Positions 8,727-52,873 of a DNA stretch of 53,013 nt are shown piece after piece (the first letter of the stretch is position 1; each line of letters opens with the position of its first letter). A program made the position numbers and the translations under genes. The stretch is from a virus: the IMG/VR virus record IMGVR_UViG_3300032086_003020, positions 1 to 53,013 of that record, one strand, 5' to 3'. A model generated the notes under the pieces. That model was not told where the DNA came from. It saw nothing but the letters and a program-made list of their open reading frames with translations, and made no database searches.

Positions 8727-8755
8727 AGGAGATCATTTTGTGGTCTCCTTTTTTT
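8727..8755 (+). terminator. intrinsic terminator
   Basis: Stem AGGAGATC (8727-8734) with GGTCTCCT (8742-8749, one T-G pair), loop of seven, then a run of T. It ends the structural block from 3.5 to 8.7 kb. Confidence 0.85.
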
Positions 8756-8762
8756 ATAAATA
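8755..8762 (+). promoter_or_regulatory. T4-type late promoter (TATAAATA)
   Basis: Exact TATAAATA starting in the T-run of the upstream terminator, 33 bases before the 8796 gene. A second copy at 8704-8711 lies upstream of the hairpin and would be blocked by it. Confidence 0.7.
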
Positions 8763-15055: not shown

Positions 15056-15204
15056 TGGAACAGTGGGCAATTAAATTAATGGCAGACACTAATACAGAAT
15101 TGTCTGATGAAGATCTGAGATTACTTAGATATGGACCACAACCTTGGTTGCCTCATGAAGTTTTGAGATATAACCTTTTAAAACTTAAAGTCAAGAAGGA
15201 CTAA
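15052..15204 (+). CDS. small hypothetical protein, 50 aa
   Basis: Starts with ATGATG overlapping the nrdB stop. Sequence MMEQWAIKLMADTNTELSDE and a basic end (KLKVKKD). It closes the primase-nrd operon: its stop codon is in the loop of the terminator hairpin. In T4-like phages small genes often follow nrdB; no glutaredoxin CxxC is present here. Confidence 0.65.
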   Translation: MMEQWAIKLMADTNTELSDEDLRLLRYGPQPWLPHEVLRYNLLKLKVKKD

Positions 15205-15219
15205 GGTCCTTCTTTTTTT
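15194..15219 (+). terminator. intrinsic terminator
   Basis: Perfect 8-bp stem AGAAGGAC (15194-15201) / GTCCTTCT (15206-15213), loop TAAG, then T6. The 5' arm and loop contain the last codons of the 50-aa gene. Confidence 0.92.
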
Positions 15220-15220
15220 G

Positions 15221-15228
15221 TCTAAATA
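15221..15228 (+). promoter_or_regulatory. late-type promoter (TCTAAATA)
   Basis: TCTAAATA right after the terminator T-run and 22 bases before the GIY-YIG gene. One base off the T4 late consensus. It lies within a small GTCTA/TAGAC hairpin. Confidence 0.45.
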
Positions 15229-20754: not shown

Positions 20755-20952
20755 GGTCGGAGCAATTTTTACTCCTTAGTCACGGATGGACTTTAACAGT
20801 ACTGGTGGAGTCAAGTATGACCCTGTTAGGTTTCTTGCTTCCTCAAAAAGCAAGTGGTGCGGATGGAGGAAACTCCCGTCTGGTTTCCAATTTCCAGAAA
20901 AAGAATTGGTGGCGAGCCTGCAAGACCCTGGGGGATTTGATCCCCCTTTTTT
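20755..20952 (+). ncRNA. candidate structured RNA with terminator, upstream of sugar cassette
   Basis: Five hairpins in 200 bases: GGAG/CTCC (20759-20762/20772-20775), CTTGCTT/AAGCAAG (20834-20840/20848-20854), GGAG-GAAA-CTCC with a GNRA loop (20865-20876), CCAATT/AATTGG (20887-20892/20904-20909) and the terminal hairpin at 20930-20946. Two short frames cross it (20786-20959, 57 codons; 20817-20981, 54 codons, the latter with GGAG six bases ahead), but both run through the terminator. I favour an RNA element; a small protein is the alternative. Confidence 0.45.
20930..20952 (+). terminator. intrinsic terminator
   Basis: Stem GGGGGA (20930-20935) / TCCCCC (20941-20946), loop TTTGA, then T6. 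It separates the oxygenase operon from the 20986 gene. Confidence 0.9.
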
Positions 20953-20954
20953 AT

Positions 20955-20962
20955 TCTAAATA
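20955..20962 (+). promoter_or_regulatory. late-type promoter (TCTAAATA)
   Basis: TCTAAATA just past the terminator T-run and 24 bases before the 20986 gene. Confidence 0.5.
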
Positions 20963-37564: not shown

Positions 37565-38545
37565 ATGAAACTCAAAGCACTCGCAGCAATTGCTGCTGCC
37601 ACTCCTCTGATGGTTGCCTGTGGTTCTAATCAAACTGCAGAGGTTAAAGAACCATTTAAACTGAATGGTGCAGGTGCATCATTCCCTGCCGCAATTTATA
37701 ATTCATGGTTGGGATCTTTTGCTAAAGAAACTGGCAATCAAGTCAACTATCAAGCAGTTGGTTCTGGTGCTGGTGTCCGTCAGTTCACTGCTCGGACTGT
37801 TGACTTCGGTGCCTCTGATGGTGCTGTGTCTGATGCCAAGCAGAAACTGCCTATGGTCCACATTCCTATGACTGGTGGTGCTATCGTTCCTGCATATAAC
37901 AACCCTGGTTGTGATGCTAAGATTACTCAGACTCAACTTGCTGATATTTTCCTCGGCAAGATTACTGAATGGTCTGCTTTCGGTTGTGAAGGTGGTTCTA
38001 TCAAAGTCGTCCATCGTTCTGATGGTTCTGGTACTACTAAAGGTTTCACCAACTCTCTATCAGCATTCTCTCCTGAGTGGAAAGAAAAGGTTGGCACTGG
38101 TAAGTCTGTGAAATGGCCTGTTGGTATTGGTGCCAAAGGTAACTCTGGTGTTGCTGCTCAGTTGAAACAAACTCCTGGTTCAATTGGTTATGTGAACTAT
38201 GATTATGTGAAGAATGGTGGTCTTCAACAACCTGCACTTCAAAACAAAGATGGAAACTTCGTCAAAGCATCTGCTGAAACTGCTTCTGCAGGACTTGGTG
38301 AAATTGTTCTTGACGATCAGTTGCGTGGTGCTGACGCTAACCCCGCAGGTGCAAATGCTTATCCTATCGTCTCCCTGACTTGGATTCTTGCATATCCTGA
38401 GTATGAAAAGAATGAAGATGTTAAAGCAACTCTTCGTTACATGCTTGCACCAGAGCAACAGGCAAAGTCTGATGCTCTAGGTTATGTCCCTCTTCCTGAG
38501 GGTCTACGTCAGAAAGCACTTGCTGCTGTAGAAACTCTACGTTGA
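37565..38545 (+). CDS. pstS: phosphate-binding protein PstS
   Basis: 326 residues with a lipoprotein signal (LMVACG lipobox near residue 18-19) and PstS phosphate-binding segments: GAGASFPAAIYNSWLGSF, GSGAGVRQF, DFGASDGAVSD, VVHRSDGSGTTKGF. It captures periplasmic phosphate for a host Pst transporter. pstS is a known cyanophage gene, induced by phosphate limitation in the infected host. Confidence 0.97.
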   Translation: MKLKALAAIAAATPLMVACGSNQTAEVKEPFKLNGAGASFPAAIYNSWLGSFAKETGNQVNYQAVGSGAGVRQFTARTVDFGASDGAVSDAKQKLPMVHIPMTGGAIVPAYNNPGCDAKITQTQLADIFLGKITEWSAFGCEGGSIKVVHRSDGSGTTKGFTNSLSAFSPEWKEKVGTGKSVKWPVGIGAKGNSGVAAQLKQTPGSIGYVNYDYVKNGGLQQPALQNKDGNFVKASAETASAGLGEIVLDDQLRGADANPAGANAYPIVSLTWILAYPEYEKNEDVKATLRYMLAPEQQAKSDALGYVPLPEGLRQKALAAVETLR

Positions 38546-38570
38546 CATTAACATAAACTTGACATATAAT
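38542..38570 (+). promoter_or_regulatory. consensus sigma70 promoter immediately before terminator
   Basis: TTGACA (38542-38547), 17 bases, TATAAT (38565-38570). The start point (about 38577) lies inside the 5' arm of the terminator hairpin that follows. A second TTGACA at 38559-38564 abuts the -10. Confidence 0.8.
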
Positions 38571-38571
38571 T

Positions 38572-38606
38572 GGACTATGCTATTCTAAATAGTATAGTCC
38601 TTTTTT
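38572..38606 (+). terminator. terminator after pstS with late box in loop
   Basis: A 12-bp stem GGACTATGCTAT / ATAGTATAGTCC (one G-T pair), five-base loop, then T6. The loop spans TCTAAATA (38584-38591), a late-type box for the 38616 gene. Confidence 0.9.
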
Positions 38607-38615
38607 ATTATTCCC

Positions 38616-38900
38616 ATGTCTGAATTCCCGAAGGATTGGAGATATGCTGATGACAGAATGCAATTAAGAGCAGCAGTATTTCGTGCTCTTAGTCATCATC
38701 TGGAAGAGCATTGCAGAGCAGTGTATGAATTTTGTCACGATTGGGTAAGTCAAGGCAATTCTAACGTTGACAACATTGAATTTTATTTTGAAAATTATTT
38801 AAAGGAGACCCATCGTGAAAAAGTTTATAAACTTGAAAAGTGCCTTGAACTCAATCCTAATTGGTACTTGCCTGTTAGGGATGAATCCAGTTCAAGCTGA
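38616..38900 (+). CDS. hypothetical protein, 94 aa
   Basis: Helical protein (MSEFPKDWRYADDRMQLRAA) with several aromatic and acidic residues; no motif recognised. Its last 86 bases overlap the exported HExxH protein gene in another frame. The start lies 25 bases after the late-type box. Confidence 0.6.
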   Translation: MSEFPKDWRYADDRMQLRAAVFRALSHHLEEHCRAVYEFCHDWVSQGNSNVDNIEFYFENYLKETHREKVYKLEKCLELNPNWYLPVRDESSSS

Positions 38901-39504
38901 AGATAAGATTACTAAGGGATATTACACAATGGATTCCATGGGGTGCATGATCTTACGAGAGTGTAAAGATGGAGTCCATCAAGTCGAAAGTATCGCAAGT
39001 ATTGCTGCTGAGTATCCCGATAGTGATTTTGATGTTGTTGCTAACGAGTTCAACAACATGCTCGTTTCTCTCAATCAAATCGGAGTTGGGGTGTTTCTAG
39101 CAGATAGTAAATATTTTCCTCCTGGGCATAGAGGTGTTTATCACACGGTTTCAAACAACTTCTTCTTGAATAAAGCATTCATGCATCGTCCCAGTACACT
39201 CATGGCAGTTATGCGTCATGAAGGGTGGCATGTTGCACAGGATTGTATGGCGGGTTCTGTCAAGAATTCTATGATTGCTATCATCATGAATGAAGAAGAT
39301 GTACCCCAGTATTGGGCAAATGTTGCAAAGAAAACTTATATGTCTTCATCACTTCCTTGGGAACGTGAAGCAATGTGGGCAGGTCATACAGAAGGCATGA
39401 CTCAAAAAGCACTTCAAGCATGTGCTGCTGGTGAGATGTGGAAAGTATATAAACCAACTCCTATGACTGCCGAGTGGTTAAAAGAAAATGGGTTTATCAA
39501 ATAG
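38815..39504 (+). CDS. exported HExxH metalloprotease-like protein, 229 aa
   Basis: The GTG start has AAGGAG seven bases upstream. The signal peptide (LNSILIGTCLLGMNPVQA|ED) sends it to the periplasm. RHEGWHVAQD (about 141-150) contains HExxH, the zinc-protease signature, and a Glu-rich AMWAGHTEGM further on could supply the third ligand. Zinc peptidase activity is inferred. It lies downstream of pstS and may act on a host envelope protein. Confidence 0.78.
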   Translation: MKKFINLKSALNSILIGTCLLGMNPVQAEDKITKGYYTMDSMGCMILRECKDGVHQVESIASIAAEYPDSDFDVVANEFNNMLVSLNQIGVGVFLADSKYFPPGHRGVYHTVSNNFFLNKAFMHRPSTLMAVMRHEGWHVAQDCMAGSVKNSMIAIIMNEEDVPQYWANVAKKTYMSSSLPWEREAMWAGHTEGMTQKALQACAAGEMWKVYKPTPMTAEWLKENGFIK

Positions 39505-48873: not shown

Positions 48874-49034
48874 CATCAGCACGTTAAGGAATGTAACTTT
48901 CCTTAAAGAGTTGTAACTCCCCGCAAACCAAGACCTCTAGGGAGTCTAAACACGTCTTTCATATCCTCTCTAAGGGTGAGAGGAAATAGTAACTCCACCA
49001 TTTCCCTGATGGTCTTACTTTTTTGTTCAATAAA
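48874..49034 (+). promoter_or_regulatory. structured psbA 5' leader
   Basis: About 160 bases with stems TTAAGGA/TCCTTAA (48884-48890/48900-48906) and TCCTCTC/GAGAGGA (48964-48970/48978-48984), and three GTAACT(C/T)C repeats (48893, 48913, 48989). Cyanophage psbA leaders can contain the PhotoRC-II RNA motif; whether this is one needs a covariance search. No Shine-Dalgarno is seen near the ATG. Confidence 0.5.
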
Positions 49035-52155: not shown

Positions 52156-52250
52156 TTAGTTCAACTACACCATATAAACTTGCTGAGATCATTCGTGATA
52201 CTTGGCCACAACTTTTTTATCCTAAAGTTGATAAAAAGAAAAAAAGGTGA
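52152..52250 (+). CDS. tiny hypothetical protein, 32 aa
   Basis: A TTG start overlaps the psbD stop; the frame reads [20 protein letters not shown] and ends in a Lys-rich tail (KVDKKKKR). Plausible as a coupled small gene behind psbD; the start codon makes it uncertain. Its end carries promoter-like boxes. Confidence 0.45.
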
Positions 52251-52256
52251 TATACT
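52228..52256 (+). promoter_or_regulatory. sigma70-like promoter immediately before terminator
   Basis: TTGATA (52228-52233), 17 bases, TATACT (52251-52256), directly abutting the hairpin that follows. The start point (about 52263) falls at the end of the 5' arm. Confidence 0.6.
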
Positions 52257-52279
52257 AGAGGTCTTCGGACCTCTTTTTT
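52257..52279 (+). terminator. intrinsic terminator with UUCG loop
   Basis: Stem AGAGGTC (52257-52263) / GACCTCT (52268-52274), loop TTCG, then T5 running straight into the next ATG (52280). Ends the psbD transcript. Confidence 0.9.
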
Positions 52280-52873
52280 ATGGGTGATATAGTATTAGGA
52301 AAATTATCTTATATTGGTCAATTTTTATCCGAAGAAGAATGTCAGATCATATACGATTATGCCATAGAAAATGAGGAAAGATTGATCAATCTTGGAGAGG
52401 ATATTTATTCTGCAGTAAAGACAAAAAACCCAAAAGGAAGTCTTACTGGTAGATATAACTTATACAATTGTTTGAATATTGATATACTAAATCCCATTCT
52501 GAAACCAAAATTTAAAAATTTAATTAATTATTTTAATTTTGATGGGGAATTGTATATACAATGTTGGATTAATATCTTAAGATACGGAGAGTCTCTTGAT
52601 ATTCACAGACATGTTGATTATCTTGATGAGACTTATATCTATGCCAGTGGTAATATTTTTATACATGGAAATCCAAATCCTGGTACTTCTTTTTATTATG
52701 ATGATCGTATTGATAATTATAAAAACAGACCTGGGATTATTCAAGTATTTCATCCAATCATTGAGCATGGAGTGAGGACATATTTAAATGATGATGTTAG
52801 AGTAAGTATTGCTTTTGATATTGGTAATCAAGAAATGTTAGAAGAAGATTCTATACTTTATAGGATGAAATGA
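52280..52873 (+). CDS. 2OG-Fe(II) oxygenase-like protein, 197 aa
   Basis: Metal residues H111-V-D113 (IHRHVDYLDE), distal His near 163 (IIEHGVRTY) and R174 (DVRVSIAFD) fit the Fe(II)/2OG pattern. The start codon follows a terminator with no ribosome site, so translation may be of nearly leaderless messages from the abutting promoter. AT-rich coding. Substrate unknown. Confidence 0.72.
   Translation: MGDIVLGKLSYIGQFLSEEECQIIYDYAIENEERLINLGEDIYSAVKTKNPKGSLTGRYNLYNCLNIDILNPILKPKFKNLINYFNFDGELYIQCWINILRYGESLDIHRHVDYLDETYIYASGNIFIHGNPNPGTSFYYDDRIDNYKNRPGIIQVFHPIIEHGVRTYLNDDVRVSIAFDIGNQEMLEEDSILYRMK

Follow-up and report, generated by a model that had tools for sequence, protein, structure and literature searches.

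A probable nested terminator-promoter at the junction between pstS and a conserved 94-aa gene of a T4-like cyanophage

Can an intrinsic terminator select transcripts by their origin? The question is raised, and made testable, by the junction downstream of pstS in a T4-like cyanophage virus record, where promoter sequences overlap a terminator hairpin. The window, which denotes the whole 53-kb stretch of DNA analyzed here, encodes both PstS and PsbA and has its closest matches among the Kyanoviridae. The features around the junction were as follows:

37565..38545, + strand: pstS coding sequence, 326 aa, from translation; viral relatives are 71-93% identical, and blastn matches annotated pstS
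38542..38570, + strand: P1, candidate sigma70 promoter, TTGACA (38542-38547), 17 nt, TATAAT (38565-38570), a 12/12 match; predicted start about 38576-38579
38559..38586, + strand: P2, candidate promoter, TTGACA (38559-38564), 16 nt, TATTCT (38581-38586), with an extended -10 TG at 38578-38579; predicted start about 38592-38594
38572..38600, + strand: terminator hairpin, GGACTATGCTATT-CTA-AATAGTATAGTCC, 13 pairs, from the inverted repeat, folding and covariation
38584..38591, + strand: late-promoter-like motif TCTAAATA at the hairpin apex, overlapping the P2 -10; CTAAATA occupies 38585-38591
38601..38606, + strand: U-tract T6, TTTTTTATT, directly 3' of the hairpin
38616..38900, + strand: conserved downstream gene, 94 aa, ATG at 38616, from the ORF and its relatives
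38815..39504, + strand: second downstream gene, 229 aa, GTG start, HEGWH motif, from translation

The 229-aa protein is conserved and metallopeptidase-like, and the S-SCSM1 gene at the equivalent place is annotated as 'proteolytic enzyme'.

The stop codon of pstS overlaps the -35 element of P1, which was the sole 12/12 promoter match within 34-53 kb. A GC-containing hairpin followed by a U-tract, the usual form of an intrinsic terminator, was found at 38572-38606; its 13 pairs include one G-U and four G-C pairs, and the single base 38571 separates it from the -10 of P1. The first-pass annotation had described a perfect sigma70 promoter ending two bases before a 12-bp terminator; the perfect match and the hairpin were both recovered, with the helix lengthened to 13 pairs and the gap shortened to one base. 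P2, which the first-pass annotation had missed, sits within the terminator hairpin, and it overlaps P1, so that simultaneous occupancy of both promoters is impossible.

The pstS/94-aa junction element is probably a nested terminator-promoter that acts as an origin-selective insulator. A polymerase arriving from pstS would copy the entire inverted repeat, and the 13-bp hairpin would form before the U-tract and cause termination. RNA started at P1 (about 38577) would miss part of the 5' arm, and RNA started at P2 (about 38593) would miss all of it. Since an element-started RNA without the 5' arm would have no helix against the U-tract, the polymerase should proceed into the 94-aa gene with a leader of 20-40 nt. 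The terminator lies downstream of the promoter binding site, and strong pstS transcription should therefore cross the embedded promoter, which it may repress. The start positions used here are predictions from the usual spacing; termination efficiency, escape and promoter interference are likewise what we infer from the sequence.

Folding supported this reading. The full hairpin with its tail, as carried by readthrough RNA, folded at -16.6 kcal/mol, and RNA starting at 38581 or later had no structure left (0). RNA starting at 38577 kept a weak 8-pair helix (-4.3 kcal/mol), with its base 5 nt short of the U-tract, and these residual pairs in the P1 transcript count against the insulator reading, as does the mutually exclusive occupancy of P1 and P2.

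The leaders of orthologs of the 94-aa gene were compared among eight phages. The P2 position scored 8-11 of 12 in all eight leaders, whereas P1 was present in two, with a score of 12 in the window and 11 in L065; the other six scored 4-7. The main start is thus more likely near 38593, at P2, which would yield RNA without any 5' arm. This result modifies the earlier proposal of a compact origin-sensitive terminator, in which the transcript began near 38577: the geometry, the fall in folding energy for RNA from that start and the recurrence at unrelated junctions described below speak for origin sensitivity, but P1 is probably not the main promoter.

The hairpin was present in five of the eight leaders, namely the four that follow pstS (the window, L031, L065 and L096) and that of Sf-CH8. 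These five sequences, four of them distinct, showed covariation, with three pairs altered on both sides and 100% of cells paired. The remaining leaders (S-T4, L090 and L091) kept P2 and the TAGTCC-TTTTTT leader and were missing the 5' arm. Consequently, the promoter is independent of the hairpin, and the downstream gene does not require the hairpin, a further point against the insulator reading. In S-T4 and Sf-CH8, the 94-aa gene has no pstS directly upstream.

A late promoter may be added to the same element. CTAAATA was enriched 9.7-fold upstream of ORFs in these loci and, together with ATAAATA, made up the top two enriched 7-mers there, which is consistent with NATAAATA, reported as the cyanophage late motif (PMC2984593). 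An NTAAATA-type motif upstream of a gene, as expected of a gp55-type late promoter, is present at 38585-38591, and a late start near 38597 would, like P2, miss the whole 5' arm and avoid the hairpin. The late motif that had been noted in the hairpin loop thus gains weight from the enrichment, but only three of the eight orthologous leaders carry CTAAATA, so the motif is optional. Overlapping early and late promoters have been reported in cyanomyoviruses (PMC2984593), including an overlapping early -10 and gp55 site at psbA (PMC5931967), and the sigma70 -10 over a gp55-type motif, as TATTCTAAATA here, resembles them; unlike those overlaps, the double promoter here lies at the apex of a terminator hairpin.

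The window contains two further composites:

52228..52256, + strand: promoter of the second composite, TTGATA-17-TATACT with TG before the -10, by pattern match
52257..52274, + strand: hairpin of the second composite, AGAGGTCTTCGGACCTCT, followed by T5 and an ATG at 52280, from the inverted repeat and folding
15193..15214, + strand: third, weaker composite, in which a 9/12 promoter ends 2 bases ahead of a hairpin; CTAAATA at 15222, past the U-tract

The second composite bears out the first-pass annotation, which had assigned the same layout to 52228-52279, and RNA starting at 52262 or later was unable to fold its hairpin.

The recurrence of such layouts was then measured in 248 related cyanophage loci (2.35 Mb, 779 predicted terminators), centered on pstS, psbA and the 229-aa gene. 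For sigma70-like promoters scoring at least 9/12, the offset of the promoter end from the first base of the hairpin was recorded. Downstream sequence defined the families that were counted; clustering of whole elements was dropped because shared upstream genes merged too many of them. In class I, the hairpin starts 1-2 bases after the end of the -10 (offsets -2/-1), and 24 downstream families were found against 1.67 expected (Poisson P about 7e-20). In class II, the promoter ends at offsets +33 to +40 with its -35 at the hairpin loop, as in ACCACTCC-TTGACA-GGGGTGGT-TTTTTATT, and 29 families were found against 6.7 expected. Class III, which has the geometry of P2 with the -10 near the loop (+13 to +15), gave 5 families against 0.44 expected at a threshold of at least 10/12 (P about 1e-4). 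Such an excess is not due to chance. The probabilities are indicative, as they treat the background as flat and the families as independent. An unbiased test that started from promoters agreed, with inverted repeats 8 times commoner immediately past a -10 than at other distances.

Among distinct loci, class I followed pstS in 22 of 74 and psbA in 20 of 79, with class II at 14 of 74 and 6 of 79, respectively. The complete isolates Syn9, S-PM2 and P-SSM2 had one class I candidate each and S-SCSM1 had three, among 37-44 predicted terminators per genome; the layout is thus recurrent yet uncommon within any single genome, which weighs against the insulator reading. One candidate sits after a psbA-type 3' end in each of Syn9, S-PM2 and S-SCSM1, with a predicted start at about 168328-168330 in Syn9 and about 138893-138895 in S-PM2. 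In a set of 40 class I elements, the median fold energy rose from -12.3 to about 0 for RNA starting 7 nt past the -10. Hairpin arm sequences vary among the composite elements, and the occurrence of the same layout with differing sequences at many gene junctions points to a possible role in compact gene-to-gene switching.

Class II elements outside the window, in L206, L045, L029, L072 and others, comprise about 79 distinct hairpins and have their -10 past the U-tract; they often precede a gene whose product starts with MTVTTNE or MDREKLKLIV. A search of five phage genomes with the exact 12/12 pattern and NGGG gave no match, the pattern being too strict.

Several controls bear on these counts. 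Antisense promoters at the same cyanophage terminators numbered 0 at offsets -2/-1. In 800 kb of genomes of 29-40% GC belonging to the same family as a Cyanobium assembly, class I occurred at 0 of 87 terminators and class II at 1 of 87; this host-type set replaced an earlier bacterial control of mostly distant, unrelated bacteria, which was a poor match. Promoter-like sites as such numbered 61 in 19 kb against 55.4 expected from shuffles, and an isolated promoter match therefore says little.

The strongest alternative is genome compaction alone, in which selection for short intergenic DNA has packed a real terminator and a real promoter into the same space, so that escape would be automatic and the overlap would have no regulatory meaning. 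The short intergenic gaps at these junctions accord with it, as do the compactness that each of the nested geometries I, II and III provides and the frequent position of the -35 inside the last part of the preceding coding sequence. Yet compaction by itself predicts any overlap rather than sharp peaks at -2/-1 and +35 to +38, although these peaks are also the offsets at which both parts can work; we regard it as unlikely to be the whole explanation. Class I elements often have their -35 within the last pstS codons (L009-L088), written as GTTGACACT and encoding Val-Asp-Thr; the corresponding sequence in other pstS genes is GTCGAAACG, encoding Val-Glu-Thr. This difference suggests that the pstS coding sequence may have been adapted to carry the promoter element.

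A second alternative takes the hairpin as an operator, or as a 5' structure stabilizing the downstream mRNA, rather than as a terminator. T4-type mRNAs use 5' structures, and the inverted repeat here lies right at a promoter. A hairpin has also been reported in the psbA 5'-UTR of S-PM2 (PMC5931967). Against this explanation, a U-tract followed 116 of 135 repeats located immediately past a -10, compared with 46 of 243 further off; RNA from the predicted start would be unable to form most such hairpins, and the arm sequences vary among elements, unlike those of an operator. It was rejected as the main explanation on the U-tract bias, and we consider it very improbable. That AT-rich DNA has yielded spurious promoter matches beside what is only an ordinary terminator is the least credible explanation of all, for although promoter-like sites are nearly as frequent in shuffled sequence, the 12/12 match, the position-specific excess, the empty antisense offsets and the retention of P2 in every orthologous leader stand against it.

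Returning to the nested terminator-promoter as an origin-selective insulator, its closest known counterparts are composite promoter-terminators of T4-type phages, the promoter-early stem-loop (PeSL) cassettes (Arbiol 2010; Comeau 2014), as outlined in PMC4503421 and PMC3950731. In the outline given there, such a cassette insulates and restarts transcription where two genes meet, by pairing a strong sigma70 early promoter with an intrinsic terminator, and a strong sigma70 early promoter with a stem-loop terminator at a junction was likewise found here. The order differs: in RB49 and T4, the terminator and U-tract are followed by a separate TTGACA...TATAAT at offsets of about +60 to +82, whereas here the promoter lies upstream of or inside the hairpin, and the classification of the element as a PeSL was rejected on this basis. 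Among 220 terminators of non-cyanophage T4-like phages, the class I core occurred at 2, class II at 5 and a promoter further downstream, in the classical RB49 and T4 order, at 30. An RB49-type terminator would shield its promoter from upstream polymerases, whereas a class I promoter would be crossed before termination. PeSL cassettes recur within a genome in similar sequence and act as sites of recombination. Here the composite hairpin sequences differ, but the pattern of similarity to other phages shifts at the element: blastn matches on the pstS side stop before or at it, and those covering the downstream gene block start at it.

Flanking promoters and terminators have been predicted for all nine cyanophage pstS genes, with no common scheme (Sullivan 2010, PMC3037559). 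The genes and both signals are the same as here, and the available text of that article does not describe the overlap geometry. Provisionally, the start-inside-hairpin order and the -35-in-loop form were not found described as recurrent cyanophage designs, in a comparison that lay outside the primary PeSL and Syn9 transcriptome papers. If correct, the proposed element would explain how the borrowed host genes pstS and psbA are insulated from neighboring viral genes despite very short intergenic regions, and its parts list of about 60 bp, needing no protein, would be usable as a genetic insulator.

A further-reaching interpretation, possible but doubtful in our judgment, is that nested terminator-promoters are widespread in cyanophages, in at least two geometries (the start inside the 5' arm; the -35 as loop), and serve as one-piece switches. 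Heavy transcription of an upstream metabolic gene would occlude the embedded promoter and terminate, and the downstream gene would be expressed only while little transcription arrives from upstream. The pstS gene of another cyanophage is under host PhoBR control (PMC10976474), and phosphate state could thus in principle affect the downstream gene in the opposite direction. A strict pattern search upstream of pstS in the window found no Pho box; prediction of Pho boxes has been reported to be unreliable (PMC10976474).

Hairpins were also found next to late-type motifs. Across many cyanophage loci, (A/C)TAAATA began 4-7 nt past the hairpin end in 5-9 families per offset, against a background of 0.2, and terminators therefore appear to be often joined to late promoters too; examples in the window are 8727-8762 and 15193-15228. 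A wcaG RNA (Rfam RF01761, 92 bits) lies at 20826-20923, with a terminator hairpin immediately after it at 20930-20946 and CTAAATA at 20956. A PhotoRC-II RNA (RF01717, 74 bits) occupies 48904-48997, upstream of an ORF beginning near 49023.
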